Assembly: GCA_034766995.1 (NCBI GenBank) | Contig: CM068318.1 | Span: forward strand, 6,830,501 to 6,894,500 | Direction of reading: 5' to 3' | DNA: 64,000 nt | DNA from: Acanthacorydalis orientalis | Taxonomy: Eukaryota > Arthropoda > Insecta > Megaloptera > Corydalidae | Shown: piece by piece, positions 17,994-56,642 of the stretch | Position numbering within the stretch: position 1 is the stretch's first letter | Layout of the letters: each line of letters opens with the position of its first letter | Notes under the pieces: model-generated | Databases searched by the model: none | What the model was told of the DNA's origin: nothing | Seen by the model: the letters and a program-made list of their open reading frames with translations, nothing else | Translations under genes and position numbers: made by a program

Positions 17994-19846
17994 ATGTCAA
18001 AGGAAAGTCTTATACTCTGTATAATTTTTATTACATGTTTTTCGGTAAGTAAATTAATATTGTGCAGTAAATATATTTTGAAAATAAACTGTTTTATATT
18101 TTTTTTGTCTATATTTTAATTCTTTTAGATAGAATTTTTTTAATTGAATTTATATTGAACTTATAATCTTTTTTTATTACATATATTGAAATATTATTTC
18201 ATTTAAATATTAGTTTTATACAATTTCTCCTATATTCAATAAATAGTGATGAGTTGTTCGTAGTTAGAGCCATATAATCAATAAAGAATTAAACCGAGAG
18301 ATTAACGATCAAGATTTATCAATACAAGTTTAATTTAATGTTAAATACTCATTCTATTAGATGATTATTAACATGCAATTTGATATTTATGTAATGAATC
18401 ATTGTAAAATTAGTCATATTAAGTGAAATATAACTGAGAATGTATGCATTAGGTTATATTTTTTAAAAAATTCTGGTATAAAATTAAAAAAAATATAATG
18501 AAATTATATTTAAAAAAATAATTAAACAGATTTTTTTTTAAATTATCACCGCAACAAAATATACAAATCGATAACAATTCTATTATCAAATTTCTAAGAA
18601 TAGACGTTAATCCTTTTTAAAAAATAACTGAATATAGACAAGAATTTAGAAATTAAATATTTTAATCAAGAAAATAATAAAAAAGTAACAATTAACATTT
18701 TTATTTATCAAATTACTTCGAAAAAGTGTACATTATTTTACGAAATCGTTAAGTTTCTGTAAAAATCACAGTGGAAAACTTTAAAAAAAAATGTACAATG
18801 CACAAATGAAATTATTTGATGATCTCACAAAGCACATTTTATTTATGTAGAGTGAAACCAAATAAAAATTTTTAGATTAAAACATTTTTTTTAAGAAATG
18901 TAATGAAATATACAAGAGAAATATACGTATAACGACGTAATATTATAAATTATTTATAAAAAAAATAATTTTAAATGGATGGGCTGCGCCATTCTAACTA
19001 TAAACGACTCAACCTATCAATCGATTCAAAATGACACATTTTTTTACAAAAAGTTAACTGAATTCTCTTCTCTAACTTGCATTGTATGCTTCTCCTGTCT
19101 ATCTACCGTTTATTATTCTATACAAATTCGGAAGGTCACACGTGAGTTCGTTTTTCCTACGATTTATTGAAACTTTCATCATCTGAGATTGATTTTGAAC
19201 TGTCAGTTCAAGATCTATCTGAAGATATTAAAAGTCAAACAGATTATAAAAGAAACAAACTCACAGGCGAATTTCAGTGTTTATATAGAGTAACGTTTCT
19301 AGTCTAATCTAAATAAGTTAAGACACATACTAATTTAGTTTAATTTATTGAAATTTGATTATTTTTATCCCAGTACTTTTATGTACAATTTTAATTTAAC
19401 ATAGCGCGTTTAAAAAGTCTGAATGAAGAATTTATGATATCAATAAAAAAAAGTGTAATAAAATGTATGTAACATTATCTAGTTGCACAGTTTAAGTTTT
19501 ATAATAATACATTTTATAAATATTACTATGTATAAGAAATAGTTTCACTGTAATAAAACATTTATAGGAAACTTTAGCGGCGACAAAACCAATAAGAGAT
19601 GTAAAACTAGAAAGTAAAATAGAACACATGAGAGCACGAGTAATGGCTGTTAAAACGGATATCAATACTATTAGAAATAGGTTTGAAATCATAGCAGAGA
19701 ATCAGCCAATATTTAGTGAAACAGTCGTTTCGATTCTGAACAATGTTACTAATGAGCTTTCGGAATATTTTAAGAATGAAGAAAAAGAGGTAAGTAGTTT
19801 GATTATTTATATTAATAAGTTGTGGAAAATTAATAGTATTATTTAA

Positions 19847-19880
<34 letters not shown>

Positions 19881-22334
19881 CAGAAACTGTAAACAAGAAT
19901 TAATTAAAGAGTGGAGTTAATTTGCATTATTTTATAATTTTTTAAATTGTTTTAAGTACTAAGAATGTTGAAAGATAGATATAATTCATTGATAGAAAAC
20001 AGAACATATTTTTATAATTATTAGAAAAAAACAGCTTATAGCAACATTTTTCCTTTCTTAAATTGTCAATAACTGATTAATGCCTATTTGATTGTAAATC
20101 AGTTACATAAATATCATATTCATAGCACAGTCGTAGAAAATTTGAGTCTAATATCTAATTTAGTTACAATTGTAAAAAAATTAACTCATATTTTTAAAGC
20201 TTCTTTTTGGTTTTGTATTTATTAAATTATATTTAAACAGTTATTAGTATAACTACTTAAAATTAAAAACCACAGAGACTATAAAAATTGATTTATAGAA
20301 TGACAATGTGTATATATGTTTTTACATGTCCAAATGTATAAAAATAATTATAATTAAATGGTTAAAAATTGAATAAACATATGATTGAATAATATAATAT
20401 ATACTTTCATTACTTATTAGAATATAAAAATATTTTTCAGTGACAGACAAATCTAACTTTAGTATCATTTTATTGATATTATTTTCTGTCAAACTTTATA
20501 ATAATTTTTGTGATAACAAACATTTCACGAAACTAATTTTTTACTGTTCTATAAACTATTTAAAAGTTTAATAATTGAAAATGTTTAACATTTAGATTAT
20601 TACTCATTTTAATTGTAGTTTATATCGATTAAAATGATGATTTCCTATCTTCATAGTGCTAATTAACAGTCAAATCTGATAGTTAAACTAAAATGATATT
20701 TTTCTGTACTTTAGAGCTCTGGATATAATGGTATAGCTATCGAAATGTGCATATGTAATAATCAAAATCACCAATTATTAAATTTTGTGGTTTGAGAAAA
20801 TGTGGAGAAAATGAAAGATTCATTTGTAAAACAAAATTTAACTACAATATAGAAATTGTTATTATTAAATAATTTATTATTTTAATTTAGTTTACAATAT
20901 TGATGAAATAATTTTGTACGAACAATAATTTTCAAATAATATTTTTCAGGCAAGAAAACTTGGAATGGTACTTCATAATCAACCGGAACTAGCAGTATTA
21001 ATTCTTATTTTACGTAATAAAACTGAATATACACACAAAATTGAAAGAGCACTAATGGATGAACCTATACCAGATAACGAAACAAAAATTTTACTTTTGG
21101 ATGTAATGAAAAATGTTATGAATTTAACAATTGATTGCTATAATAAATATATTTTTGAAGTAAGAAAAATTTTTAAAAAATATTATAATATAAATAATAT
21201 ATAAATAGGTAATAGATAGATGTATATCTCTTATTTAGCTTTTTTTTTAAAAAAAAAACGTTCATTTAAAAGCAATAATAATTGAGAATACATTAAATTA
21301 TATCAATAAATCTGATGTTCAAATTTTCAATGTGAAACAAAGATTTTATATTTAATAATTCCCCTATTAAATTTATTTTTAAAGGTTTTTACTTCACAAC
21401 GTGTTTTTAAATGAATATTAATTGTTTAAAAATTTTAGTTTTAAATACACTACAATCCCAATTAGTCAATCAGTATTAAATACGTATATTATTTAAAAAA
21501 AATACTTTTGACCAAGCCTCTATTAAATCGACCTTTTTTAAAAAAGCAGGTCATATATAATGTTTTTATTAAATAGTTTGTCACATTTGGTTGATAATAT
21601 TTTTATCAGAAATAAATCATTCTTAATAGTTTCTTTTTTTTTAGAAAACAACTAAAAATAAACTAGTCAAAACTTAGATCTGATATTAAATCGAAACTTG
21701 TACAGGTTAAATAATTATAATGAAAAACTAATTAATTATTCTTATTCATTAGAATGTTATTTTTAGTATATTTTTTTATAATTGAAAAATAATCTTCTAC
21801 CATCAAAATATGAATATGGAACTCAATTACTTTAAAGAAAGTGAATATGAAATTAATTCAATTATCTATTTACAACATTTGGATGAAAATTTTAGAATTA
21901 ATTTAGTTTGAATTCAGTATTTGTGATCAGTAGATATTTTTAATTATTTGAATTGAAAAAAAAATCGTTTAGGTACTGAATAAAAATATTCAGAAAACAA
22001 TTTTAGATTTATTTCTCCAAAGAGACAAATAAAAAAAGATACGATTAAAAATTATAATAATCATTTTTAAAAATTTCAGTTAACCGCACATACACAAGAA
22101 TGGATTTTAGTAGATCCAGTACTCAATTGGAAATTTCTAATGAATTCAGATTCAGAAGTGTATGATGAAAAAACTAAGGAAGCTATATTACGGATGCAAA
22201 ATATTATGAATAATTGTAAGAATCAACTCAAGAAGTACCAAACAGAATATGCATTAATCCTCGCGGAGTATCGAAGCAAATTGTTTGATATGGCTGAAGT
22301 AGCTTTTGATACTGAAACATTAAATACAATGTAA
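17994..22334 (+). CDS. array gene A: secreted helical protein, four phase-0 exons
   Basis: The exons are 17994-18044 (17 codons), 19568-19789 (74), 20950-21159 (70) and 22080-22334 (84 plus stop), all with GT-AG borders in phase 0. The product is about 245 residues. Exon 1 is a signal peptide (MSKESLILCIIFITCFS). Exon 2 carries the family motif in altered form, with MRARVMAVKTDI where the other genes have M-W. Exon 3 ends in the family motif DCYNKYIFE. Exon 4 opens with LTAHTQEWILV, giving the family His-x3-Trp, and is longer at the C terminus than in the other genes. Predicted structure is mostly helix. This is the left-most and most divergent member of the array. No known family was recognised. 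The signal peptide implies secretion, and the role is unknown. Confidence 0.82.
18538..18765. repeat. repeat R3, copy 2 (intron 1 of gene A)
   Basis: This is the counterpart of 16985-17225, in the same orientation. With that copy it brackets gene A exon 1. Confidence 0.55.
19849..19877. repeat. (TA)n microsatellite in gene A intron 2
   Basis: About 14 TA units. Confidence 0.85.
20695..20830. repeat. MITE-like repeat R1, right half, intronic
   Basis: It contains GCTATCGAAATGTGCATATG, TAATAATCAAAATCACCAAT and TTTTGTGGTTTGAGAAAATG, the family right end. It is in gene A intron 2. Confidence 0.55.
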
Positions 22335-26074: not shown

Positions 26075-26416
26075 ATGCAATTCAAATTCTTTTGTGTAAT
26101 AGTATTTTCACTCTGTTTACAGGTATGACTTTTATAAAAATATTTATTGCATGCATAAATATAGATCGAAAACCTGAAAAAATTATGTAAAGAATTTCTG
26201 TTCGATAAGAACATGAAAATATACTAAATTCAATAATTTTAGTTGAATAACAATTGTAATCGATGTACATTTTTTTTAAAAAAAAGCTAACTTTTTTATA
26301 ATTGTTTGTGTCACATAAATAGACATGAAAAATCCTCAGTTTTGCATAAAGTCCTTTGTTTATATACTATGGTCAATATTTGTTTTTGTCCGTATTTACA
26401 ATTAATATATTATTTC

Positions 26417-26459
<43 letters not shown>

Positions 26460-27370
26460 TTTGATATTTCGCAATTATCTATTAGACAAAACCTGCACAA
26501 GTTTTTTCAAATTAAATAATTGAGTATTTTTCCTTTTTATATATCTATAGTACATTGTCTTATATCTTTATTTCATTATATTCATGGATATTTTTTAGGA
26601 GTTCTCTTTTTTATTTCAGTTCAATAAATAATTTTCATTATTTATCTGCTACCTTTTTTATAATATTTTTTTTATTTCAATATTTTTAATTTAATTGGTT
26701 TTATATCCAGTTAATTGGTTTTATATCGTCTGTATTTTCTTGATATATTATGTATGTACGTATATACATATACTTGAATAGAGAAAAATAGATGAGAAAA
26801 TAATACTTGAAATAACTTATCTTTATTTCAACATACAACGACCAGAATTTTCAATATATTTCTTAAAATCTGTAACAAGTTTGCTAATTCTGCCAATAAG
26901 TGAACTAGGTGTTTACTCCTTCAATCAATCCTTCTCGATAGCTTTTAACTTGCTCGTGATTGAATTACAGTTCATTAAGATAATACGAAATCATACACTA
27001 ATTCAGGAATCCATGTAGTGGAACCAATTTGATATTATTTACATTATCCTGATAATCTAGATTAGATACTATTTGAATTTTACTTATTCGTCATATTAAA
27101 AAAATGATATCGAAGTAAATTACTTTAATGACGAAGATAAATCTGAAGGGAAGAATATTTGGAGCAGAAAAAATATTTCTTCATTGGTAGAATAAATGAA
27201 CTTGTTACAGGTTTACAGAAATGTATTTACAATAGAGTTAAATGTTGAAAAATAAATACATGATTTCAAAATTTATATTCTGATATTTATTTGTTTAATT
27301 CCAACATCTTAAATTAGTCTAGAATTATAACGCTCGCGAAAAAAAATCAACTATCTTTGTATGTTATATA

Positions 27371-27450
<80 letters not shown>

Positions 27451-27972
27451 CTAACGATCCAGTACAAAATAAATATTTTTTACAATTTAAATTATTCAAT
27501 ATAATACCTTAAACACATTTCTAAAATATTTGAAACATAAAATATTCATTCATTCATATTTCTCATGCCATTTTGTATCAACTGGCTTCCAGTTAATAAT
27601 TTCCGTCGACCATCTATTATATTCGTTTCTTATGACAGAAACGGACTGTTTATTTATATATTCTCTACTTTATTATTATATCAGTTAATCCAATCTGTCT
27701 ACGTTTTGTTGAGTATCCAGTACTTTTTATTCCTAAACATTTCCGATATATTTTCTAATTTATTTATATCGTCTGTTATTGACCTCTTTTGAGTTTTTGT
27801 ACATTTTCTAGCTTTCAAACAAAAATTTCCTCTGTTTAATTAGTTTATTCTTTTTTTATAAGCCCTCCGTTATATGATTAGGTATGATTATCACAGATTT
27901 TTATTATTCTTGTTATCATACAAAAATTTTCAATTTTTTAACATGTTCACGATTTTTCTCCTCTATTTCTCA

Positions 27973-28066
<94 letters not shown>

Positions 28067-28071
28067 TATAC

Positions 28072-28121
<50 letters not shown>

Positions 28122-31100
28122 ATATGGTTTAAATTTTAGAGTGTATTTACTGATGATGCACATAGAAATACATATCGCGACACATATGGAGATAGAAATG
28201 GCGACACTGAAGGCGACATAAATGTAGATACAACTGCCGATACACACAGGAATACATATGAAGACCCATATGGTGATGTACGTGGTGATCCACATAGAGA
28301 TACCCATGACGATACCGATGGTGATACACATATGGATGCATATGGCGACCCATATGGTGATACTCGTGATTATGAAGGTGGTGGTACACATGCTGATACA
28401 CATGATAGAGATGGACACAGAGATGCACATGGGGACCCATATGGTGATAGACGTGAAAATGCTCATGATGACATGAATGGTGATAGACATGGTAATACAC
28501 TTATGGATACATATGGTGAGCTATATAGCGATCCACGAGATGATACACGTGATGATACACATAGGGATGTACATAGTGACCCATATACTGGTACTCCTGG
28601 TTATACACATGGTGATACACGTGCTGATACACATATGGATACATATGGCGACCCGTATAGCGATTCACGAGATGATACTCGAGGTTATACTTATGGTGAT
28701 CCACATGTTGATCCACGTGCCGATCGACGTACTTATCCACATGCTGATCCGCGCGGTGACCCACGTAGTGACCCACGTGTTGATACTCGTGGTGATACTC
28801 GAGGTTATTCACGTGGTGAACCACATACTGATCCACGTGGCGACGCTCGTGGTAGTGATCCACATACTGATACACGTGGTGACCCACGCAGTGACCCACG
28901 CAGCGACCCACGCAGCGACCCACGCAGCGACCCACGAAGCGACCCACGAAGCGACCCACGCAGCGACCCACGTAGCGACCCACGTAGCGACCCACGTAGC
29001 GACCCACGTAGCGACCCACGTAGCGACCCACGTAGCGACCCACGTAGCGACCCACGTAGCGACCCACGTAGCGACCCACGTAGCGACCCACGTAGCGAGC
29101 CACGTAGCGAGCCACGTAGCGAGCCACGTAGCGACCCACGCAGCGACCCACGCAGCGACCCACGTAGCGACCCACGTAGCGACCCACGCAGCGACCCACG
29201 CAGCGACCCACGCAGCGACCCACGCAGCGACCCACGCAGCGACCCACGCAGCGACCCACGCAGCGACCCACGTAGCGACCCACGTAGCGACCCACGTAGC
29301 GACCCACGTAGCGACCCACGTAGCGACCCACGTAGCGACCCACGTAGCGACCCACGTAGCGACCCACGTGCTGATCCTCGTGGTGACCCACGTGCTGATC
29401 CTCGTGGTGACACTCGAGGTTATACACGTGTTGATCCACATGCTGATCCACGTGGTGACCCTCGTGGTGGTGACCCATATGCAGATCCACGTGGTGACGC
29501 ACGTAGTGGTGACCCACATGCTGATCCACGTGGCGACCCTCTTGGTGGTGACCCATATGCAGATCCACGTGGTGACCCACATGCTGATCCGCGTGGCGAC
29601 CCTCGTGGTGGTGACCCATATGCAGATCCACGTGGTGACCCACATGCTGATCCACGTGGCGACCCTCTTGGTGGTGACCCATATGCAGATCCACGTGGTG
29701 ACCCACATTTTGATCCACGTGGCGACCCTCGTGGTGGTGACCCTTATGCAGATCCACGTGGTGACCCTCGTGGTGGTGAACCACATGCTGATCCACGTGG
29801 CGACCCTCGTGGTGGTGACCCACATTTTGATCCACGTGGCGACCCTCGTGGTGGTGACCCTTATGCTGATCCACGTGGCGACCCTCGTGGTGGTGACCCA
29901 CATTTTGACCCACATTTTGATCCAAATCGAGATACAAACAGGGATACAACCAGAGATACGATCCAGGATCCATATTCGGAGTCAAATCGAGATAGATATT
30001 TTAAAGCTCGTTTTCAAAGATTGTTTGATGTAATGTGGGCAAAAGTGAATCGAGCAAAAGCGGAAATCACAAACACAAGAGCGCCATTCGAATATTTAAT
30101 CGTTCTGCCTGTTTACTATTTGAATGCTTTAGAAGGAGTATATAAAAATTTAAGCGATGAACTGACATACAACTACAGAAATATAGAAATTTCGGTACGT
30201 ATATAAATACAAGTAGTAGTTATATTTTTAAATATATGAGATACTTTTTTAATTGTCATCGTTTCAGATAGGACTTTCTGATGAGTATTTGAATAAAAAT
30301 TAGTGAAATTGTAATTGTTTAACATATTTTATATCAGTACTTTTAAATATTTGTTCGTTTACGACAAAAATGGCATAAAAATGTATACATCTTTTACGAG
30401 ACATTTTAGAGTTTTCTATTTACTAAAATATAAATAACGATCATAAAAATTCTGTAAATGTGATTATAGAAATATATTGATAAGTATTTTCCAAATTAAC
30501 AACTGGCATCTCTTATAACCTTTATTTTCATATTTTTTGAGTCATGATTTTATTATTAAACATGTGATTGTAAGTCTTTGAATTTGGACAGTGGTTGCAA
30601 TGAACTAAGATAATTATATTAACACAAAATTAATTTTACTAAAATCAATTTACGAAAATCACTTATAATTACAAAGAGATAAGATATGTGTAAAAAATCG
30701 AATATCGAATAATAACGACAAAAAAATAATAGACATACATTTAAAAACTATCAAATAATGCTGTATAAGATTTTGAAATATGTTTTCATTTGAAAAATGG
30801 GAATAAACAGCTCTAGACTATACACTGGAGAAAAAACATAACTTTTCATTTTGAAATACCTGAAAGTGGATCATTTTTACATATTAGTACACATTCTTTT
30901 GTAACAGTTGTTTAATTATTGTTTGATTTTGTTTTATAGATAAAAACAATAAAATAAATAAAAGAATTCTAAAATTTGCTGGGAACATAATAAATTTATG
31001 TTGTTCTCTATGATAACGATATTAATATTGGTGACTATTTTTGATTATAGTCCAGAAATGAAAAATTGTGCCATTTTTATCGAAAACAAACAATATACGA

Positions 31101-31191
31101 GTATTCTTCATATTTTTTATTGACTGTATATTCCTCTAGACCGATATTTTATTTTTTCTAATACGATCGTTTTAAATATTTCCATTGTCTT

Positions 31192-31229
<38 letters not shown>

Positions 31230-32532
31230 GGTACCTTAAGATGGTGCAAGAATTGAAATCGGTAATACTAATATATGATAATAAAGATTGAATGATAGAC
31301 GTATTAGAAAAATATAACTGAAAAAAGTTCAATAAAGGTCTGTTTGAAAATGATGAATATATCGAAACCAGTCCTAAAAGATAAAGAAAAGAAATAGCAG
31401 TGTTTTAAGAATACACTGCGAGGAGTTATCTTTGTAATTGTTATCTAGCTTATGAATGAAATTTGATTTCATAGTAAGTTGAAAAATGGTTATAAACAAG
31501 ACTATTGTATAATGAAATCAATATTTACAACACTGCAAGTCTGTTCTAAAAATATTCTACAATAACTCATTTTTTACTGTAATTATAGTCGTTTAACGTT
31601 TTGATTTGCAGCTGTTGAATATTTTGAGAATGTTGATAATATACATTGTATTGATTTTCGTGTGAAAAAAGTATCTATCAATATAAAAAAAATGTATCTA
31701 TGAGAGTTGCAGTGAATAATTATTTAAAGAATAGAAAGAAAAAAAATGTCTATAATGATTGGCTATGAACAATTTAATTGTAAATTTATGCTGTTTTTAA
31801 AGGCGAAAATAACTAAAGATTTGTCTTATGAACCACCACAAATCTTTGTGATGCGTAAACTTTCGGACCATGAACCAGTCATAAACGAAATATATGTAGC
31901 AGTGATGTTGAGTCGAGGTGGTACTTACATCGATCCATATATTAAAAATAGAGCAATGGAACCGATTCGAAGAATATTTCAAATAGCAGTGGATTTCTAC
32001 AAAAGCTATTTAAGAGAAGTATATATTTTTTTTTACTTTTTATATCTAAAAACCACTACATTTTCTCATTACAACAATTGATTATAAGTTTAATATCGAA
32101 TAAATTCAATGTGGTCTAATCTATTTTTAAAATCGATGTGTTATGAAAATACATGGATTTTATTTTTTTTAAATCACTGTATTATTAAAATATGAATATT
32201 AAAGTAATAATTATTGTATATAGAATAATGATACACATTGTTTTATTTCTCAAGAATACTGAGCTCCTCTACAAAACATATAACTCTCTTTATATGTTTG
32301 GTTTTTAATGTTTATTTATTTTCGCCAGATTGAATCTTCACCTGAAATTTGGGATAATATCGGAGCTATACGCTTCTTTAATACTCTAGCACCGACACAT
32401 CCAATATGTGAATATTCAAATGCAGAAAAAGTTGCAATGGAACGAGTGAAGAATGAGTTCAGTATCGCGGATAGACAGATGAAGAGCTATTTAAGAGAAC
32501 TTGATTTAACATTGGAGGGAGGAAGATATTAA
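26075..32532 (+). CDS. array gene B: secreted protein with giant Asp-Pro-Arg repeat exon
   Basis: The exons are 26075-26122 (signal peptide [16 protein letters not shown]), 28140-30194 (685 codons), 31803-32018 (72) and 32329-32532 (67 plus stop). All introns are phase 0, and the product is about 840 residues. The first ~618 residues of exon 2 are D/P/R/G/H/T-rich tetrapeptides. A normal family exon 2 end follows, with [16 protein letters not shown]. Exon 3 ends DFYKSYLRE, where Tyr replaces the usual Cys context. Exon 4 opens [11 protein letters not shown] and ends LEGGRY. The expansion is therefore inserted between signal peptide and helical core of an ordinary family member. The repeat frame is set by this open reading through both splice sites. 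The other frames are open only because the 12-bp unit lacks stops. The long intron 1 (2.0 kb) makes the exon 1 assignment the least certain part. The product is expected to be secreted, with a long disordered polyampholyte arm. Its function is unknown. Confidence 0.8.
27366..27447. repeat. long (TA)n tract in gene B intron 1
   Basis: About 40 TA units with one G interruption. Confidence 0.9.
27975..28119. repeat. (TA)n tract just before the repeat exon
   Basis: About 145 bp of TA with periodic AAATATA interruptions. It ends 20 bases before the acceptor TTTTAG of gene B exon 2. The Ile-Tyr frames seen across it are artefacts. Confidence 0.9.
28140..29994 (+). repeat. coding tetrapeptide expansion of gene B exon 2
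   Basis: This has three zones. First, 28140-28880 holds degenerate tetrapeptides of the type x-D-[PT]-[RHY] with Asp in nearly every unit. Second, 28881-29360 holds 40 perfect 12-bp units encoding DPRS, three of them EPRS, varying almost only at the third base of the Arg codon. Third, 29361-29925 holds longer composite units such as [20 protein letters not shown] short [12 protein letters not shown] tail follows. About twenty RGD tripeptides occur, mostly in the third zone. The GC content is far above the flanking DNA. Confidence 0.95.
31194..31226. repeat. (TA)n microsatellite in gene B intron 2
   Basis: About 16 TA units. Confidence 0.85.
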
Positions 32533-33645: not shown

Positions 33646-34502
33646 TGGACTAACATTTAATTATAGAGAGAAATATTTTACTAAAAATCTAACAAATAAG
33701 TTATTTTTTTATTTGAAAATAAACACCTTTTTACTTCACTGAATTGAGAAATAAAGTAAAGAAAGAATATGCTGTTTTTAATACCTGAAAATAAATGAAA
33801 TGTAATTAACAACTACTTAAACAGTTAAAGAAATGCTTATATTATACTTTCAAGCAGATATTTTTACAATAAAATCAAATATTTCTTATTTAAATATAAA
33901 TAATGAAAAAGTTACGTTGTGGATTTGAATTATTTTTTTAAAGAATACCATACGTTACTATACTTGTTCGGACTACTTATTTTCATGTAAGATAGTATTA
34001 TTTGTCATACAAGAAATTTTAAAAATTTAATTACAAAAAAAACGATTTCACTGAACAAATCTAGTAAAAAAATAAATTTTACTTGTTTAACGTAATTTGA
34101 TACTATTTTGATCATTATCGTTCGGAGATCTTTCTTATTTTCTATTTTCTTCCGTGTATTTTACTATAATTTTTCAGTTTGTTTATAATATACAAATATT
34201 TTGATGATTTGTTTACAATACCATCAAAATATTTACTAAAATATTTTTATAAAACACAATATTTATATTTCATATTCATATAATAGAATGGTACAGAAAA
34301 ATTCACTTTTAAATTATTGTTTAATTTATAAACATTTTACTTAAAGAAAATAGGTACAAACTGAAAGATATAACTTTAAGGATTATATTTAAATTTAGAT
34401 TTTGATATATAATAAATATTATTCAATTATATTTTTGAATTGTAGACAAGTAACAAGTCTGATATTTCTTGTATGACAATTTAATTTCAAAAAAGTACAT
34501 AC

Positions 34503-34660
34503 GTTTGCAAATGTTATGTGATTAATTACTCCAAAAGAAGAAGCAGTAATATTTAGACACATATCTGCCCTCATCATTACGAATATCACATCTTTTTGGA
34601 CCTTAACTGGCGCATTGTACCATTTACTGTCATAGATTGAAAATTTTATTTGTTCGCTCT

Positions 34661-34717
<57 letters not shown>

Positions 34718-34892
34718 ATATGTACCTATGTATAAAATACACTTTTTTATATGCAAGTATAAAACACATACCTCATTTATTAATTTCTGAGAATAAAAAC
34801 TGGATACGAATAATACAGTAGTCCAGCCAAATAAATGAAGTACAAATTTTATTAAATCTTCTGCTGATGACACCTTTTTAAAACACAGATTG

Positions 34893-34937
<45 letters not shown>

Positions 34938-37005
34938 TGTACGTATATTTAATAGAACGATTTTTTCAAAATAAAACCTATGAAATATCTTTTGTTCATT
35001 TACAGTAATTGTTAATACTTGTTTAAAAGTTTATAAAATATCTAAATAAAAGCAGCTCAACAAACTAAAAATTTATAGTGTTATCTCTTGTTCAATTTAT
35101 TATATAAAGAATAATATATAAAAAATTTAAAAATACTTAAAAAGTATCTGATATTTTTAAATACAGATTTAAATCTAGTATATGTATAAGGGATATGTTC
35201 AAACACTTTCTAGATCATAGAACTTTCAGATCTTTAAGAAATGTATCAATAATTACCAAAATGATTTCAAGTACTATAAAACTGATTTCGAGACAAATCA
35301 TACAAATATGAAGAACCATCATGCCGCTAAATGCTTCTTTTATGATAAAGGCACACCTGAAAGAACTTGATGTAATATATTTTTATACTTTTATGAACAA
35401 AATTTGTATGTTTTTTAACTTTATTAATCGGAAAAAATTAAAATGTTTTGTTCAATTTGATTTTCTATACGAATGATGTTGGTCACGTGTTCCGAGGTTA
35501 TTTCTTCTACGCCCAGTTTTATAACCTTCGATATCTTTAGATAGATTGAGCAAAATATGAAAAAATTGTTCGTAGGGGAAATTAATTTATAAATATTTTG
35601 AAGATCACTTCGAAATATACACAATAAGTACATAGGAAAAATCATAATAAAGACATTAATTTGGTATAAAAAACAATGATAAATATTGAGATATAAAGGT
35701 GTAATATAGAGTAAACACGATGTTAAAAAATGAGTGAAAAGAAGTTTGTCAATGGTTTTATTCAATTGATAAAAACCTGTCAATAATTAGAATTTAACTT
35801 AGAAATTTGAAAAATAAAATTGTACTATTTTACAAAAAAAATCTGCCATATATTTTTTAACAAAGAGATGATTTGTTTTGTTGCTCTTAAAATTCACATA
35901 TATTTTATAAAACGTTTCACTACTTTTCAACTTTTCCATATTTTACAAAAATGATTTCATAAAACCACTCAAAACATTAAAATCACTGGCATATATTTTA
36001 TAAAGAAAAATATATTTTCCTACATATAATATTGTTAATTTTACTATTTAGGAGAATATACACACAGAATAAATTAAAAAATAACTAAATAATCTTTTAA
36101 AACTTAATAATTACATATTTTAAGAATTGTAAATGATCGTATTTATTTTTGATAATAAAACCATAACTTCATACCTTATGTACAAAATGAAAAATGATCA
36201 TATCAAGATGAAATAATACTTACTCGATTATTGCAATATGATGTTTGATACCAGAATTTAATTTATTAATTAATATATTTGTTGTGTCTTCATTGTTATC
36301 AAATATTGTTCGAAAATAATGTTGCAAATATTTCAACTCGTCATTAATATATATTAGGAGTGATGACAAAAAAGTGGCATAGAGTAAAACAATATAACTA
36401 CCAAAATAAATTACCATTATTTGAGATGCCACATACAATGGTTTGATTAAAGAATGACTGACATCGAATGGAAATCTTACAGGAATAGGTATTTCACAGA
36501 CTATCAAACCATGATATCTAGTTATATTTCTTGTTTGTTCTATCACTTCTTGTTCGTGTTCACATTTTTTATATAATAATACAGGAATAAAGTTGAAAAG
36601 CGAACAAGATATAAATACATAAAATAAAATCATTTTCGTTATCGTTTTCACTTTCATTTCAGTACCTTCAGATAGACATTTATTGGGACGAAACGTTTTA
36701 AAGTCAAGGATTCTATTTAATATATTAATTATTAAACCTCTATTGATATTAAAGCAAGTTGTCATGTACGCATTTCCACAAACCGACAATCCAGTAATTA
36801 CAGCGTCCATTATATATACGATTCTACCACTATTTCTCACAAGATCAATGCCATTCAAAATAACAGGCACAGCGACAGGTATCATTATAAAGAAACAAAA
36901 AAAATAAGATTTAAGAGTTGACAATAAACTAGATTCTTCTGTTGGCCATAAAAATAGTATTTTCATTACTTTATAATGAATGGTGAGAATTTCCTGTTCC
37001 TTCAT
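34503..37005 (-). CDS. insect odorant receptor, four exons, terminal exon not located
   Basis: The minus-strand exons are 37005-36224 (260 codons plus 2 nt, from an ATG), 35356-35257, 34873-34772 and 34658-34503. All junctions are GT-AG with matching phases. They give 380 residues, near the usual length of about 400 for insect 7TM receptors. Exon 1 has a typical N-terminal ILFLWPTEE-like segment and several membrane helices. Exon 2 (FIIKEAFSGMMVLHIC) and exon 3 (LHLFGWTTVLFVSSFYSQKL) are the late membrane helices. Exon 4 has the family hallmark IYDSKWYNAPVKVQKDVIF followed by MMRAD. Odorant receptors form ligand-gated cation channels with Orco in the dendrites of olfactory neurons. The last exon, normally about 15-25 residues ending in a short SYF/SYL-type tail, was not found below 34503. 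Either it lies unrecognised there or the gene is decayed. An AG directly before the ATG leaves an upstream start exon possible. Confidence 0.88.
34663..34713. repeat. (TA)n microsatellite in odorant receptor intron
   Basis: TA units start four bases beyond the acceptor of the fourth receptor exon, so they form its polypyrimidine side. Confidence 0.9.
34896..34934. repeat. (TA)n microsatellite in odorant receptor intron
   Basis: About 19 TA units. Confidence 0.9.
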
Positions 37006-37009
37006 GACC

Positions 37010-37578
37010 TGAAAATAAATTACAAATACTTTTCACGTAACTAACAGTCGAATGAATGGTTACTTGCTATTAGAGTTTCTAATGACGACCGATTAAAAAA
37101 TTCTCAACATGATTTTAATCGTAACACAGCTGAGTAATATTTTACGAGTATAAATAAACAAAGTACATTTTTCATTTGATTTAAGTTGTGTTTTCTGCTT
37201 ATGAAATAAAAAGGCTGCTTTATATCCGAAAAATTAATGAATTTAAATTTAATAAAAATTAATTTTAAATTGAGACAAAGCCAGAAATTAGAGAAAAAAT
37301 CAGAAGAATTAGAGGAAAAATCCTGGATATATATATATATAAAGACTGTACTTGAAATCCTTTTTTTTTAAATCTGCGCTTTAATTGGTGTATTGTCTTG
37401 GTAATCTTGAGTTTGAAATTAATTTTAGTATTTATTTGCCACTAGTTTTAGCTCTTGAGCTGTCGTAAAGTTTGTTAACAAACTAAGTTACTCAAATACT
37501 ACCGGAAGATAAGTCTACAAACCAAAATTAATCGTGGTAGATATATACTCAAGTGATTTGTCAGAACTAAGACATTAA

Positions 37579-40876: not shown

Positions 40877-41481
40877 ATGATTTCTAAATTTATATATATT
40901 TTTATTTTTGTTGTTTGCTTTGAGGTATTGTACATTTTAATTTATATTTTATTATCTCATATATATATATATATATATATCCTTATTTATTAATTGAAAA
41001 TTACTAATGTTACTTTATCTTTGAAAAGTATGAGAAATAAAATCAATTCTAAATTAATATCACTTCATACGATAATGTATTTTTTCTACATATTTTTGTA
41101 TATAATAATATAACTAATTTTCTATTATAATATAAGAGTAAAGATACCATTTTTTTGTTTACTTTTAATGTCTTATCCAAATTAATATCATTTAACAACA
41201 CTGAATATAGCAAATTCAATAATATATACATATTGTGATTATTTTGTTCACTACTGTCAGATTATTTTTTTTAGATTTAAAATAAATGATATTAAATTTT
41301 CATTAATATATTCAACCCAGTGTGAAATAAGTATGTATTTTCATATATAGTTCTGAAACTCATATGCCGTGTGAATTCAATTACTTATTTAAAAAAAATT
41401 AAAAATATATTCAGACCTTGAACCTGCTTTTTCATATTAATATCGCACTGAACGATTTGAATAAGTTCAAATATTTATGTA

Positions 41482-41530
<49 letters not shown>

Positions 41531-43459
41531 GTTCATATTTTATTTTAGAATACATGTTCGTTAGTAATAAGGAGGAGTACCGATGAAACATTAGATCAGC
41601 AATTAACCACTATGTGGTCAAAAGTCAACAAAGCCAAAGAATCATTAGAATTGTTTAAAAATAAAACAATTGAAAAAACTACTAAGTTAGATCCAGATGT
41701 AAAACGACAGTTGAATCAATTAATAGACAATTGTTTGCAACAATTCACACACGAGTTTGAAAATATTGAAGAACAGGTAAAATAATTATATTGAATACAA
41801 TTTTTAGTTATATCCATTAAAGCATATACACCAATCGTTCTTATTAACTTATTTATAACATTACTTTTGTTTTCTTTAATATTATTTTTAACATGAAAAA
41901 GAGGATATAAAGGTGATTGATTTAAGTAGATAAACTTTATTTATGGTAGAAATCTACTATTTTATGAAAATAAAAACAAACTTTACAGTATAATCAAATA
42001 CTCTTTTTTAATTTCAGAAATTAATTTATCATTCTCGTATAATAGAATAGTTTGAATTAATTTAGAATTTTATAAAGAGTATGTATAAAAAGACAGGTTT
42101 TGGTACTAACAATAAACCAATTATGAAATCAGCTTTTAATTCCTCAAACTCCAAACAAATTCCTAATCTAAAATGTTTAATAATTGATTATTTATTATTT
42201 TTGTTTGTTGCTTATTTGAAATTCGATGGTGTCTTATGGTACGTGGGGCCATTATTCTCAAAATTAATATGAACAAAAATCAAAATTGACTAATAAACTA
42301 TTATGGTATATTTTTGGTTAGAAACCTATTTGATATATGAATAGTAAGAAAATCATTTATGGAACTGAATGTAGTTCCAAGAGAAATATTTTTTATATTT
42401 ACATATAACCAAAACCAGATTAAGATTTCCTATTAATTATATCTTATAAGAACAAACAATGAAAAATAGTTTTAAATATATTAAAATTTTACTGATTTTC
42501 AATTTTAAAAAATGTAAGTTTCAAGTACCAAATTACAGATTTTCATATTTAATTCATCATCCTAAAAAATATTTTAAAAATTCTACTGTAGTTTAACAAA
42601 ACGAACAAATAGTCTCCTTCTCTCTAAATAACTACAATAGAGTTCAATAGAAAATAAATATTTAATAGTGTTATTATTTTTACAAATATTATCATATTTC
42701 AGGCCAGAAAGACCGGACACTTAGAATACGATATTCCAGAGTTAGTTATTTTAAAGATTGTATCAAAAAAGTATCCAGAAATTCATAAATTGTTGATATC
42801 CACATTTGAAAAACTTCCATATCCACTCGAAGTTCAAACAAAATACGATATCGAAAGAGTTTCAACGGAAATGTTGAATAGTACTTTACAGAATTTGCAA
42901 GAATTATGTGATGAAGTAAGTCATTTAACAATTATAGATGTAATATTGGAGGATTCATATCTGATTGATCTGAAATATCATATCTGATTTTTCTTATTAA
43001 ACAACTTTGTACATAACCAAAATTATTCATTTAGTCAATCAAAAAATATTCACTATTTTCTATATATTTTTCTAGCAGTATTTTTTATTGTAATGTTTAT
43101 TCTTCTAGTTCAAATCTTTAACATTTAATACAAACGAACAATCAATAAAAACTAATAGTTTACTTAATATGAAAATAAAATCAATATTTTTTATCTTTAT
43201 ATTTAAATACTATTACACGATTTTCAATATCTAGATAAGCACGCATCAAGAGTCATGGAGAAAACTGGATCTTTCGTTGAGCTTAACTTATTTCAGAGAA
43301 GAGAAAGATCCGTCGAAATATGATGAAGAAACATTAGCATCTTTTGATCGTGCAAAAATAATTATCGAGAGACAAAAGAAAACGCAAGAGGAGAAGATTA
43401 AAATTGTACAAGCCATTTTAGCCGCGGATGTAATAAAAAAAATTAAATCAAACAAATAG
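40877..43459 (+). CDS. array gene C: secreted helical protein, four phase-0 exons
   Basis: The exons are 40877-40924 (signal peptide MISKFIYIFIFVVCFE), 41549-41776 (76 codons), 42703-42915 (71) and 43235-43459 (74 plus stop), GT-AG and phase 0 throughout. The product is 237 residues. Exon 2 has QLTTMWSKVNKAKESL. Exon 3 opens ARKTGHLEYD and ends LQELCDE, a shortened version of the family C-terminal motif. Exon 4 opens ISTHQESWRKL, has KYDEETLASF in the middle and ends in a Lys-rich tail. Cys residues lie in exons 2 and 3 but their number differs from neighbours, so there is no fixed disulphide pattern. Intron 2 holds an R1 repeat. The product is expected to be secreted. The family is unknown. 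Confidence 0.85.
41485..41523. repeat. (TA)n microsatellite in gene C intron 1
   Basis: About 19 TA units, 25 bases before the exon 2 acceptor. Confidence 0.9.
42140..42360. repeat. MITE-like repeat R1, intronic copy in gene C
   Basis: It contains CTAAAATGTTTAATAATTGA, TTGCTTATTTGAAATTCGAT and the inverse block AAAATCAAAATTGACTAATA. Confidence 0.5.
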
Positions 43460-45805: not shown

Positions 45806-47495
45806 TTCAGTGGCGTAACAGTTGTGAAGATTATATTAAACATAGTACAACAATGTACATGAATTGAAATTGATGCGAGTATAGAATGAAATTATTCAAA
45901 TAAGCGATAAAAAAATTGTATAGACATGTTAATACATATGTAGGTACTCTATTCAATTATAATAATGAAAATATATTTTGAGAAGCACTATAGCAAAAAA
46001 ATAAACATTTAGTATCAATTAAGAAATCGAGCCATGTTTCTAAATTTAATTTGAGAAATTAGTTGTTATTTTTTGAATTCGTATAATAATTTTTATTTAT
46101 TAATATATAAATTGTATAATAAATCTAATAAGATATTTTTTATGTTATCTATATTGAATAATTGATAGTAATTGGTTATCTGAGATGTTACCTAAGACTG
46201 TGTTAAAAAAGAACAACATGCGCATGCTATAAAAATATCAAACTCTGGTTGTTGTTCTTGTAAGTAAGTTGTAATGCTATTATTAAATGTACTATAAGTA
46301 TAATGGTATTTAAACTGTGTAAAAAATATATCAATTGACAATAAGAAGTCTTAAAATAAAGAAAAATCAAAAGCAACACTGTATTAATGAAAACGGGTAA
46401 ATTTGTTTGGATTGAAATGTTTGAAGTGAGTTTCATTATTAAGCATTTTATAATTATAACTGGTTCTTTCATTCTATTCTAGATTTCTTTAACCTTGAGA
46501 ATAAACTAAGTTTTTATCAAGTACAATAAATGAATTAACTTATAAACAATATCACATCCATGTATATATATATATATATATATGACTAGAAAATTAAATT
46601 AAAATTATTTTATAATATCTAGCTGGGAATGAAAATTGAGATTATAGTAAAAGTGAAAAATAGACATTTAGCTGATTCAAAAGAATGAAGACCAACAAGA
46701 CAACGAAATAACTGGTATAAAAATTTAAAATTACTATTATAATTAATTTAGGTAAGTATTTATAATTATTATTAAAGTAAATTAATCATTAAACCAATTA
46801 AGACAAAAATTTACAATTATAATACACAACTAAATTCATACATGAGTTATATATGAGAGGAACTGATCTGTGAGCTAATAGAGAAACCTAAAGAATCGAA
46901 ACTTGTCATAGCAGATAAAAACTTATTTGTTTCCAATGGTTAAGATTATCAACACAATATTCTATGGCTTATTAATCTGAATTTGTTGTTAAAAATTAAC
47001 GATTTGAGACAAATTTCTGACACTATATATGTTTTAATATTCATAGATGTTTCAACTTGAATATTTTTGTAATTATTATTATTTTTCCAAAAAAAAAACA
47101 ATTAATTTACAGAGCTATTCCATTTTTCTTTAATCTGTATAAAATTATTACTAATTTTAAAGTAATTATATTAAAATCTTTGGTTTTACTTTTAGTTTGC
47201 TAGAAATATTACTACATTTAATTATTATTACATGAATTTTGTCGTAGAAATTTAATTTTGTCAAATTTTTTCTCCTGTTTATTTTTTCCTGATAATTATG
47301 TATGATATTTCAAAATAAATATAAAATAATTATTGATTACATTTTTTAATTGTATTTTTTAATTGTAAATAGACATTACAAATAGAGAACACTACTGATA
47401 CTTTTAAAGTTTTTTTTTTGGATTAAATCTAATGTACATCGAAACTATTACTATTATGAGAATAAAAGATTTATTGAAATGATCCACACATTCTA

Positions 47496-47548
<53 letters not shown>

Positions 47549-47650
47549 GTACTGATTTACATAAAAAAAATAAAACATTTATTTCTACGCCCATGTTGTA
47601 ATTGTTAATTTTTTGATTATCTTGTTTTTGTTGTCTTTGAACCATTACTA

Positions 47651-47686
47651 TATATAAATAATAAATTTATGAAGTCAATTTCAGTT
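47651..47686 (+). promoter_or_regulatory. core promoter of gene D: TATA box and initiator
   Basis: TATATAAA at 47651-47658 and TCAGTT at 47681-47686 lie 30 bases apart start to start. This is the canonical insect spacing, and the ATG is 36 bases further on. Both elements are conserved in the duplicate gene E. Confidence 0.7.
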
Positions 47687-47721
47687 TATTTCTTGTCTAC
47701 TATTTCGACACATCATTAACA

Positions 47722-47803
47722 ATGGCAGTCGTTCAATATTTTGTCTTGTTGGTAATTTATCTATGGCACAGTCAGGTATTTACAAATATTTTTTACTAAA
47801 TTA

Positions 47804-47852
<49 letters not shown>

Positions 47853-48359
47853 GTATATTTTCAATATAATATAATTTTGAAGCACTGAAATGTAAAATAT
47901 ACCGATTGTTCAGTTTTCAGATATGTTATTTTTTTAAAAAATATAATGAAATTTGGAAACGTTAATTTTCACAAAGATAAAATAACATCTGTTAAAAATT
48001 AAATGTTGTTTTTTTACAGAACGAAGTGACTGCAAATACCATTTCTCCAAATTTACAAAAGGATATTGATAAAATGTGGGAAAGATTCAATGAAATAAAA
48101 GAAATAGTTCTAGAACGAAAAGTCAATATGAAACATAGAGTTAATATGACGAGCAGCGAAAAATGCGAAAAATATATTGATAATTTCGTTGATGAAGCAA
48201 CGAAACATTTCACGGATACAGAGAAAAAAGTAACAGAATTATATTCATATTTCTTTGTACATTGCCTGAAGTAACAGTATAAAAAAATGTTATGCTTTGT
48301 CATTCAACATAATTAAAAGTAGTCTTCTTTACAAACTTTTTAATCTTAACTCACTATAA

Positions 48360-48420
<61 letters not shown>

Positions 48421-50246
48421 TATTTTCAAATAAGAAAGAATATTTAATTTCAACTAAATAGTTTTAATATAAAAACATTCTGAATTCTTTAAATAAAAGC
48501 AAATAACTGTATAAAAAAATAACTCAATCGAATTCATTCTAGAGCATTTTAGGCCAATGAACTCTAAAGGACAGCAAATAAAAACAGGCTGTACTAATAT
48601 AAAAACTGGTCCCCAAACACATTAATTACCAATTCATTCTCTTGAAATTTTAGTAGAATTATTTTCTTAATCCGAATCTATCAGTTTTATAAGTATACTC
48701 GATTGATATTTCTTTATTATACATTAAATATACGTTAAAAAAGTGTTTACTCTTACTTAAATATATAAAATATAATCCATTTAAATTGATATATATATAT
48801 ATATATAATTCTATAAATTAATTAGAAAAGTATTATTAAGTAATTTTTTTACTTTAAGGCAAGAGAAGAAGGTGTGCTCAATCATGAAAGAACTGATATT
48901 TATTTAGTTAAACGGTTTTGTGGAAATTACGATGGCTTCTTTCCTATATTTATGGAAGAAAAATTAGCCAGTGAAAATGTTGATGAACCGACAAAAGCTA
49001 AACTTACAAAAGTTTTATTAAATATGAAACAAGTGGGTGATGAAATGTGTGATAAATATATAAACGAGGTATGTTTTACAAATTATTCTTCTCAAAAGAG
49101 ATATAAATGGTTTATTAGTTAAAATATTTAAAGTTCACTTGTTTAAATAATTTTATAAATAATTTATTTATTTGTTTTATCTCAAAAATTCAAAGAAAAA
49201 TAATTAAAATATTAATATAGACTAATATGTTACAAATTGATTCAATATAATCATTTATGTTTGAAGTTTGATTAAGATTTATACAGTAAAATATTAGAAT
49301 ATAATTAAGAACCATTGGTGTTTTCATAAATAACTTGTAAAATTCACAATAAACATTTTTTCAAAATTAATAATTTCTCAAATGTTATATAATTGATTAC
49401 TGATTATTTTTGATATTTATCAATAATTGTAAGTAATTCAATCGTTGAAATCTAATCTGATAAACATTAGGATTTTTTCTCAAGATTGGATTTTCTTGGA
49501 TCTATTTACTATAAATATGATGACATCTAGATTTAAATTCGCAAAATAGAAACAAAACATGATTCATAAAAAATTATTGATTATTTTTAATCAGATTCTT
49601 TATAATTGTAAGAGAGTAAATAAATAATTCTCGAATTGATTATACACAAAGCAATAAAATGTATATTGTTGATTTTAAAATGATTTATAAACTTATAATT
49701 TGATTTTAAAAACAATTGTTATTTTTAAAATTTTCAAAATACTTATTGAAAGATAGAGTATTTAAAATCAAAATTTATTTAAAAAAATCTCTAACTAATT
49801 CATAAAAATAATGATACTTTTATACAGGAGATTAGAAAAGTATATATTAATTTCTCTGTACTTAAATGTGGTTAATTTTAATATATGAAATATATATGAA
49901 AATTTATTCTGTTATATATATATATATATAACTAGTCACAATACAAATAAATTCTTAAGGATTTATAAATAGACCGAATCGTTCATTGTATATGTTCGTT
50001 AATTTTAATCTTATCATTTTTTAGCTCGATACTCATTTGGAAGTGTGGAAAACGTTCGATTCACTTATATTTTTAAATAAATTAAGTCATTTAAACGCCG
50101 ATAAATATGATACAGCAACTCAACAATCTTTGAATAATATAAAGAAAATCGACGAATGGCAAACAAAACGTCAACAGGAAGTTTTCGAAGAATATAATTC
50201 TATTTTGAATGCTTATTATGCAATTCATCCGAAATCAGAACACTAA
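47722..50246 (+). CDS. array gene D: secreted helical protein, duplicate of gene E
   Basis: The exons are 47722-47775 (signal peptide MAVVQYFVLLVIYLWHSQ), 48020-48229 (70 codons), 48859-49068 (70) and 50025-50246 (73 plus stop), all phase 0. The product is 231 residues. Exon 2 has DIDKMWERFNEIKE. Exon 3 opens AREEGVLNHE and ends GDEMCDKYINE, and has two Cys. Exon 4 opens LDTHLEVWKTFDSL, has DKYDTATQQSL and ends HPKSEH. AATAAA follows at about 50309. Reading through the exon 2 donor would give a short tail and stop, but the matching acceptor and the family plan favour splicing. The gene differs from gene E by about 40 residues. It is expected to be secreted, and its function is unknown. Confidence 0.88.
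48364..48417. repeat. (TA)n microsatellite in gene D intron 2
   Basis: About 27 TA units. The equivalent site in gene E (52615-52629) has only about 7, so length has changed since duplication. Confidence 0.9.
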
Positions 50247-51349
50247 GATCATTTTAACATCTGCATGACTTATATTTGTGTTAAATTTGTTAATATCTAC
50301 TAACAAATAATAAATAAATATAATATACTTGTCAATAAAAAAAACATTAAAATTGAATAAATAGATATCTACTTACAGTTTAATTGAAGTATATCTGTAA
50401 AAGAACAAAGAATAATTAGACTATAAATAAATTTTTTACTTTGCTAAACAATAAAGTATAATTATTACAATATAGAGTATTTTTATTTTTAAACATCAAT
50501 AAATATAAGTTATGAAAATTCTATAAAATAGATATATATATTTAATAAATCGTTTATTTTTTATTTTAGTGAAATGAATACCTTATATTTATTATGACTC
50601 CTAAAATTATTATCGTATAATGACTATACAATATGAAAAATAATATTCATTTTTAGATTTTAAATCCATTTCTCTATAAAATACTAATCATTACAGTAAA
50701 CTCTTCGCATTTATTTAGCATACAACAAGTAATATTTCAACACAATTTAAATTCATAAATGTATCCAACTTCAGGAGATTACAAAATTGGAAATTTATAT
50801 ACAGCAATAAAAAAAAGTAAGAATGAGATAGTAAAATTAGTTTTTACCATCTAGCTGAGAATGAAAATTGAGATGAAACTACTAATGAAGAACAGGACAT
50901 TTTGCTGATTCAAAAGAACAAAGACCAACAGGATAACCAAATTTCTGGTATAAAAATTTACAATTACTATTACAAATTATTTAGACAAATATTTGTAATT
51001 ATTAAATTAATTAATGAAGAATATTAAAACAAAAATTTACAATTATAATTATAATACACAACTAATTTCATATACGAGTTATCTATAAGAAGAACATATC
51101 TCTGAGCTAATTGAGAAACCTGAAGAATCGAAACTTGTCATAGCAGATAAAAACTTATTTGTTTTCAAAGGTCAAGATTATCAACACAATATTTTATGGC
51201 TAATTAATCTGAATTTGTTGTTAAAAATTGATGATTTGTGACAAAGTTCTACCACTATAAATATTCATAGGTGTTTCAACTTGAATATTTTAGTAATTAT
51301 TATTTTTTTGCAAGAAATAAACTTAATTTACAAAACTATTTCGTTTCTC

Positions 51350-51404
<55 letters not shown>

Positions 51405-51881
51405 TTATTACTAATTTTAAAGTAATTTTATCAACATTTTTGGTTTCACCTTTATCTGCCCTAAAAGTTTGATTTTGTCAAATTTTACTTATGTTTTACT
51501 TATGTTTACTTTTACTCTGTTTATTTTTTCCGGATAGTTATGTATGATTTTTCAATAAAATATAAAATAATTATTTCTTAAATATTTTAATTGTATTTTA
51601 GAATAATAGACATGATAAATAAAAAACGTTATGGATATATTTCAAAGTCTTTTTTGGGATTAAATCTAATGTACATCAAAATTATTACAACTGTGAAAAT
51701 AAAAGAAACATTGAAATGATCCATTATATTTTTTTTTTGATATATATATATATATATATACATATATAAATATATAAAATGTACTGATTTACATAAAAAA
51801 ACAAAACATTTATTTCTACGCTCATGTTCTAATCGTTAATTACTTCAGTATCTTGTTTTTGTTGTGATTGAATCGTTACTA

Positions 51882-51917
51882 TATATAAACAATACATTTC
51901 TGAAGTCAACTTCAGTT
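51882..51917 (+). promoter_or_regulatory. core promoter of gene E: TATA box and initiator
   Basis: TATATAAA at 51882-51889 and TCAGTT at 51912-51917 have the same 30-base spacing as in gene D. Both are retained although the surrounding bases differ. Confidence 0.7.
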
Positions 51918-51952
51918 TATTACTTGCATACTATTTCAACACATCATTAACA

Positions 51953-52044
51953 ATGGCAGTCGTTCAATATTTTGTCTTGTTTGTGATTTTACTGTGGCAC
52001 AGCCAGGTATTTACAAATATTTTTATTAAATTATTTATATATAT

Positions 52045-52096
<52 letters not shown>

Positions 52097-54204: not shown

Positions 54205-54252
<48 letters not shown>

Positions 54253-56131: not shown

Positions 56132-56173
<42 letters not shown>

Positions 56174-56610: not shown

Positions 56611-56642
<32 letters not shown>

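Follow-up and report, generated by a model that had tools for sequence, protein, structure and literature searches.

Two groups of secreted insect proteins offer the closest described parallels to the locus analysed here. The AAPP gene of the mosquito Anopheles stephensi is described as having four exons, of which exon 2 encodes a calcium-binding GE-rich repeat region, while collagen binding requires exons 3 and 4 (PMC6395645). According to the account in PMC5307786, the An. gambiae 30-kDa gene has four exons as well; the N-terminal half of its product is acidic and of low complexity, and the C-terminal domain consists mainly of two helices and contains four cysteines. The arm-less SG7, a derivative of the 30-kDa family, is most likely the outcome of an exon 2 loss (PMC5307786). 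For the Drosophila glue proteins, PMC6352337 describes Sgs3 with internal repeats next to the clustered relatives Sgs7 and Sgs8 without them, and Sgs5 with Pro-(Glu/Asp) repeats in several species next to Sgs5bis, which never has repeats. The same account reports fast change in the number and motif of the repeats, variation in their number inside one D. melanogaster population, and predicted disorder of the repeat-bearing proteins (PMC6352337).

Gene B of the array described below has a repeat arm between an apparent signal peptide and a predicted helical core. A preliminary description of this DNA had stated that no secreted family with this architecture was described. That statement falls, since mosquito AAPP/aegyptin, Drosophila Sgs3/7/8 and Sgs5/5bis have such a layout; the architecture is already known. 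Compared by their descriptions, gene B and the mosquito 30-kDa (AAPP/aegyptin) family share four exons, a charged low-complexity region in exon 2, later exons for a helical domain, predicted in the case of B, and an arm-less relative. The mosquito arm is given as Gly/Glu/Asp-rich, strongly acidic and roughly 100–150 residues long, whereas that of B has about 613 residues and mixed charge. The mosquito helical domain is defined by four conserved cysteines, whereas the B core has one, and in B the arm and the first core helices lie in one exon, unlike in the mosquito family as described. With Sgs3/7/8 and Sgs5/5bis, gene B shares the situation of one clustered paralogue in which repeats separate the signal peptide from a conserved C-terminal part, next to others without repeats. 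As far as the published accounts go, the repeats of the large glue proteins are Pro/Thr/Ser-rich, unlike the Asp-Pro-Arg type of B; the intron shared by Sgs3/7/8 lies in phase 1 inside the signal peptide, whereas that of B is in phase 0; and Sgs7/8 are Cys-rich (12–14%) proteins of about 75 residues, whereas the B core has 1 Cys in 209 residues and its paralogues 2–4. Gene B is best taken as a case of a secreted tandem family in which one copy grew a repeat arm.

A tandem array of six genes

The window, i.e. the whole stretch of DNA analysed, is 64,000 bases long (24% GC) and contains six tandem plus-strand genes, A to F, each with four exons and with introns that are all in phase 0. Exon sizes in the array are about 50, 215, 210 and 220 bp, and the only departure is exon 2 of gene B. 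Gene A (17994–22334) has exons at 17994–18044, 19568–19789, 20950–21159 and 22080–22334; gene C (40877–43459) at 40877–40924, 41549–41776, 42703–42915 and 43235–43459; gene D (47722–50246) at 47722–47775, 48020–48229, 48859–49068 and 50025–50246; gene E (51953–54563) at 51953–52006, 52271–52480, 53084–53293 and 54342–54563; and gene F (55659–57535) at 55659–55709, 55896–56105, 56753–56962 and 57314–57535. Profiles of exons 2, 3 and 4 matched all six genes with an E-value of 2.5e-23 or better per exon when both strands of the window were searched. The best matches outside the expected places, on either strand of the window, were E = 0.16 for exon 2, E = 0.0098 for exon 3 (this being exon 4 of gene A) and E = 0.066 for exon 4. 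No further array member was found by the exon profiles at 44–47 kb or 57.5–64 kb. The array reaches near the window end and may extend past it.

Gene B (26075–32532, plus strand) begins with an exon of 16 residues at 26075–26122, which holds the start and, judged by eye, the hydrophobic part of an apparent signal peptide, and ends in phase 0 at the donor CAG/GTATGA (leave-one-out donor score 12.0). Exon 2, at 28140–30194, has 685 codons and encodes the tail of the signal peptide, the repeat arm and the first piece of the helical core. Its acceptor ends in AAATTTTAG before AGT, its donor is TCG/GTACGT, and frame 0 has no stop. Exon 3 (31803–32018) is predicted to be helical, and exon 4 (32329–32532) ends with the stop codon. 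All splice borders in the array are AG/GT. Exon 2 measures 222, 2055, 228, 210, 210 and 210 bp in genes A to F. Thus, the preliminary description was right in giving 28140–30194 as a 2055-bp exon in this frame, as the AG/GT borders, the open frame and the phase of the neighbouring exons agree with it, and also in its range of 210–228 bp for the other members, which we measured in all five. It also placed the extra sequence correctly, between the signal peptide (a by-eye reading) and the Met-Trp helix. Since the exon profiles find exactly six genes with these exon sizes, we take the coordinates 28140–30194 to be right.

Gene B is the most diverged of the six members. In a leave-one-out test, its joined core scored 68.0 bits against a profile of the other five, compared with 7.1 bits for the top of 2000 shuffles; in the same test A reached 92.6, C 79.2, D 96.2 (with a profile lacking both D and E) and F 125.6 bits. 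With single-exon profiles built without B, exon 2 of B was matched at E = 1.9e-5, exon 4 at E = 0.041 and exon 3 only at E = 0.67. As far as sequence comparison goes, membership of B in the family is clear from exon 2 and the joined core, with exons 3 and 4 weak when taken singly. The view that B is otherwise a normal family member is borne out by its four phase-0 exons and the 68.0 bits of its core.

The other five members were compared with A at 18–25% identity, and the reading frames of all six are intact. D and E are, on comparison of their sequences, a recent duplication, with dN of 0.098, dS of 0.151 and dN/dS of 0.65; their introns 2 and 3 differ by 9–11% and their 1-kb upstream regions by 13.7% (46722–50246 compared with 50953–54563). 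The core of B contains 1 Cys in 209 residues, those of A, C, D, E and F contain 2, 3, 3, 2 and 4, and no cysteine position in the alignment is shared by all six members. The six genes appear to be a fast-evolving tandem family of small, apparently secreted helical proteins. Within gene B, the end of exon 3 (31803–32018) resembles the end of exon 4 (32329–32532) with 55% identity over 22 residues (E = 0.04). Alignment of the exon 3 and exon 4 profiles with hhalign gave E = 0.0073 and a probability of only 5% over 28 columns, the exon 3 profile touches exon 4 of A at the E-value of 0.0098 mentioned above, and exon 2 gave no hhalign match to the exon 3 or exon 4 profile. These similarities hint at an old exon duplication behind exons 3 and 4 of gene B.

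Composition and age of the repeat arm

The arm consists of three parts. In its degenerate N-terminal third (28140–28859) the unit is approximately Gly-Asp-Thr-His/Tyr, and neighbouring 12-mers are 0.54–0.65 identical. A near-perfect Ser-Asp-Pro-Arg centre follows at 28860–29393, in which 12-mer identity reaches 0.92–0.99 in the bins from 28860 to 29339 and is 0.71 in the bin at 29340; TRF reports 28873–29393 with periods of 24 and 36 and 94% matches. The C-terminal part (29394–29978) is built from higher units of 39 and 63 bp and then from NRDT/TRDT, with 12-mer identity of 0.47–0.62. The outer parts are thus degenerate GDTH/Y, ADPR and GDPR, in part arranged in 39- and 63-bp units. Since identity between neighbouring 12-mers peaks in the centre and falls in the flanks, the arm reads as an in-frame 12-bp minisatellite renewed from its middle, with an old unit of about Gly-Asp-Thr-His/Tyr and a young unit Ser-Asp-Pro-Arg.

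The first 615 residues of exon 2 contain 140 Asp, 100 Arg, 100 Pro, 65 Gly, 51 Ser and neither Lys nor Cys, and include one run of 40 S(D/E)PR units. The arm is 41% charged with a net charge of -0.08 per residue; in the centre, Arg and Asp are equally frequent and the net charge is +0.006 per residue. Charges are well mixed along the chain: the patterning value is 0.025, compared with a mean of 0.068 in shuffled sequences and a minimum of 0.051 among 200 shuffles, so that the arm is better mixed than all of them. The calculated pI is 4.8 for the arm and 8.5 for the core.

The remainder of exon 2 (29979–30194) is the piece of the helical core that bears the Met-Trp helix and that the profile without B detects. 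AlphaFold2 was run on separate exon pieces of B (exons 2 and 3), using an alignment to the exons 2 of the five paralogues in the case of exon 2. It predicts coil throughout the arm, apart from a low-confidence helix at residues 2–15, with block pLDDT of 35–52. In the exon 2 core, helices are predicted at exon residues 614–647 and 658–684, with block pLDDT of 84–94 in five of eight blocks and 69–77 in the other three. For exon 3, helices are predicted at 12–23, 25–35 and 45–71 with a mean pLDDT of 69. As the core helices start at exon residue 614, the arm, counted with the signal-peptide tail, has about 613 residues. The preliminary description had given an Asp-Pro-Arg tetrapeptide arm of about 618 residues. 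The long arm stands, and its length is corrected to 613–615, depending on whether the helix start or the chosen core start is used; the tetrapeptide is present in 67 DPR triplets, 39 of which belong to SDPR units, but the regularity does not extend over the whole length, only 28860–29393 being near-perfect. Its further points, a long, charged, disordered arm and a helical core, agree with the predicted coil, the charge content and the predicted helices, those in exon 2 reaching a pLDDT of 94 and those in exon 3 being less sure.

Conservation of the aspartate spacing

We compared changes between codon columns in the degenerate parts of the arm, using a four-codon register that was fitted on the same data that were tested. 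The N-terminal part comprises protein residues 17–256, about 60 units with register switches at 106 and 255, and Asp is present at 46 of the 60 unit positions. At the first two codon positions, the Asp column is off the majority base in 12 of 120 cases and the other columns in 128 of 360 (Fisher p = 1.6e-8). Taken singly, the other columns are off at 43/124, 41/118 and 44/118, and Asp differs from each with p below 1e-5. At position 3 the Asp column changes as often as the rest (15/60 vs 48/180; p = 0.87). The C-terminal part covers residues 435–616, with 10 register switches and larger units that make its results weaker. There, Asp occupies 41 of its 43 unit positions and Pro 39 of 43. Changes at positions 1 and 2 affect Asp in 1 of 86 cases compared with 54 of 278 for the others (p = 3.3e-6), the single values being 4/86 for Pro and 22/104 and 28/88 for the remaining columns; Pro is kept like Asp (4/86 vs 1/86; p = 0.37). 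Third positions are changed in 19 of 43 Asp codons and 29 of 139 others. Column 4 (R/H/Y) shows more change at positions 1 and 2 than at position 3. Because duplication copies changes, the units are not independent, and all these p-values make the evidence look stronger than it is, most of all in the C-terminal part.

The Asp codon is thus relatively spared at positions 1 and 2 and not at position 3, and for this reason the Asp spacing looks selected. This is moderate evidence that one Asp every four residues is a kept feature of the arm, and we lean towards selection for Asp spacing as its cause. The same pattern bears on the reading that the arm is translated and merely tolerated, an in-frame minisatellite being harmless behind a signal peptide as long as the helical body, which alone would matter, is made. 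Absence of the arm from five of the six paralogues fits such baggage, as does the young, homogenised centre; Drosophila glue genes differ widely in repeat number, even inside a single population (PMC6352337), and the downstream core would force the frame to be kept in any case. Baggage leaves unexplained, however, why Asp is spared at positions 1 and 2 in the oldest part, and why, in the degenerate parts, a drift to AT is seen at third positions but not at positions 1 and 2. We consider it rather unlikely.

Length, frame and processing of the arm

The length of the arm is read from an assembly through the repeat, and the true allele could be much shorter or longer. The run of 40 S(D/E)PR units would be a plausible place for such an error, and an (AT)n tract at 27972–28125 ends only 14 bases before exon 2. 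On the other hand, the degenerate flanks alone amount to about 1300 bp, far more than the 210–228 bp found in the paralogues, and the sequence of the N-terminal part, at least, is probably varied enough to assemble. An arm that exists with a badly wrong length is, to our minds, quite unlikely.

A further rival reading places the repeat outside the mature message, as part of intron 1 with a shorter exon 2 or as a noncoding exon. The acceptor at 28140 scores 2.63, within the span of -3.0 to 14.2 of all 18 acceptors in the array, and the exon 2 donor (2.98) is the weakest of 18 donors. At least 12 AGs in 26123–30194 outscore this acceptor, the best with 12.46 at 27211, and all of them lie in the wrong phase or lead into a frame with a stop. 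Seven phase-0 AGs give an open frame to the end of exon 2, among which 28140 ranks first and the next scores -4.33. Two in-phase AGs near the core, at 29967 and 29982, could serve a shorter exon 2, but they score -4.33 and -12.8. The acceptor AG of exon 2 closes an in-frame TAG. This coincidence of acceptor and frame opening carries little weight, as 8 of 18 acceptors have a terminal TAG.

Openness of the frame by itself is likewise weak evidence, because a 12-bp repeat copies it cheaply, and other frames are open over long stretches: frame +1 for 518 codons (28477–30033) and minus-strand frames for up to 499 codons. Over the whole arm, the plus strand nevertheless has no stop in frame 0, compared with 3 in frame +1 and 110 in frame +2, so only frame 0 is stop-free throughout, and it alone links the first exon with the conserved core. 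Dinucleotide shuffles with any open plus-strand frame numbered 0 of 1000 for 28140–28872, for 29394–30011 and for the whole exon. Codon-position contrast in GC content also argues against an intron. GC is 0.68, 0.51 and 0.16 at positions 1, 2 and 3 in one degenerate part of the arm and 0.87, 0.63 and 0.20 in the other; GC3 is 0.25 in the other five members, and the wobble position of the degenerate arm is likewise AT-rich in frame 0. The young centre lacks an AT-rich wobble (0.75, 0.75 and 0.57). Together, these sequence features indicate that the arm exon is very probably a real, translated coding exon, and a repeat outside the message appears improbable.

It is equally improbable that the arm gives rise to short peptides or serves as a protease substrate, cut by trypsin-like enzymes at Arg into Ser-Asp-Pro-Arg pieces that are released or divert proteases from the body, for against the 100 Arg per 615 residues and the run of 40 S(D/E)PR units stand only two Arg-Arg pairs in the whole arm and none in the centre, an old part that keeps Asp best and not Arg, the mismatch of RSDPR with the P4-Arg rule of furin sites, and the shortness of tetrapeptide units for peptide hormones.

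Proposed origin and role of the arm

The explanation that we prefer is that gene B is an intact secreted member of the family whose arm grew from a minisatellite and acts as a hydrated, charge-alternating spacer; as a whole, we give it a probability of about 0.5. Gene B would belong to a fast-evolving tandem family of secreted helical proteins, and a 12-bp in-frame minisatellite in exon 2, right after the signal peptide, would have expanded in B alone by slippage or unequal exchange. The predicted product has 840 residues (about 95 kDa), with a flexible arm of about 613 residues made of Xaa-Asp-Pro-Arg-like units before a helical body of about 210 residues. The body may do the specific work, such as partner binding or assembly. 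The arm, with Asp every four residues and, in its young part, Asp alternating with Arg, would form a long hydrated spacer of alternating charge. By analogy with AAPP, it would probably bind divalent cations, and it might make the secretion cohesive or provide many weak contacts for the body. Because Arg is as frequent as Asp in the centre, the arm would bind cations less strongly than AAPP. We put forward this spacer, cation or cohesion role as tentative.

A bolder version, which we think unlikely, is that the array is an undescribed insect secreted family with one member carrying a selected 'aspartate ladder', i.e. a 600-residue Xaa-Asp-Pro-Arg polymer of alternating charge fused to a helical binding body, the whole acting as a cohesive or hydrating extracellular polymer set by divalent cations.

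If our preferred explanation is true, gene B adds a further case, beside fly glue and mosquito saliva, of one family copy with a repeat polymer absent from its relatives. It stands out from routine cases by the extreme length of its arm, by a tetrapeptide of mixed charge and by the hint that selection acts on Asp spacing; as a natural material, so long a polymer of mixed-charge tetrapeptides would be of unusual design. Natural controls are available in the five neighbours that lack the arm, and the presence of old and young repeat zones within one exon would give a direct look at what selection keeps in a disordered arm.

Database and literature searches

A search of the protein database with the six-member alignment returned 1739 candidates, none with E ≤ 0.01. 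The absence of relatives is no proof of novelty, because a control search of the same database with a fragment of the neighbouring odorant-receptor gene was also negative (338 candidates, none with E ≤ 1e-5); either close insects are missing, with birds, fish and abalone present, or word seeding fails. A search with the exon 2 protein gave at least 70 matches from at least 7987 scored candidates, all of them low-complexity, and none of those listed has the family core (best exon-profile E = 0.5). The best of the exon 2 matches listed was P0001 (818 residues; E = 1.2e-46) with a GDPR/SDLR repeat. It contains 27 DPR triplets, the most among the matches listed, compared with 67 in B, and its start reads as a CCCH motif rather than a hydrophobic leader. 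In the PDB, gene F had no match by sequence, and the family profile gave eight matches, all at chance level (E = 0.045 to 0.18) and none bearing the name AAPP or aegyptin. Pfam and NCBIfam gave only sub-threshold matches for the six members (B taken without its arm), and none for the B core or B exon 2.

In the open-access literature, we found no description of the Asp-Pro-Arg repeat or of the six-gene family, no Asp-Pro-Arg repeats in insects, and no such arrays or Asp-rich repeats in connection with venom. Jones et al. in 1992 reportedly described, going by their title, a hymenopteran (wasp) venom protein with a repeating internal structure. The motif Ser-Asp-Pro-Arg was met in the open-access literature only in peptides of the somatostatin system, as judged by titles and abstracts. 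For tetrapeptide repeats in wasp venom glands, the searched text of PMC10304110 gave only the name of a homeobox-like protein.

Neighbouring features

Overlapping the arm on the plus strand, frame +1 at 28477–30033 forms a 518-codon open reading frame of Val-Ala-Thr-His repeats. It is probably a by-product of the 12-bp repeat and could mislead gene finders. Near 14.0–14.8 kb a mariner-like relic was considered and rejected, as it had no Pfam support. Between array members B and C, an odorant-receptor gene (7tm_6) occupies 34422–37032 on the minus strand; its 3′ piece (34422–34658) is matched by Pfam at E = 1.4e-6, above the cut-off, and its larger 5′ piece (36223–37032) at E = 4.3e-4, below it. 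The match to this receptor family points to an insect. The minus strand also has an open frame of 393 codons at 4568–5746 with a Rad60-SLD (SUMO-like) domain (E = 1e-15), which we take to be an NFATC2IP/Rad60-type gene.
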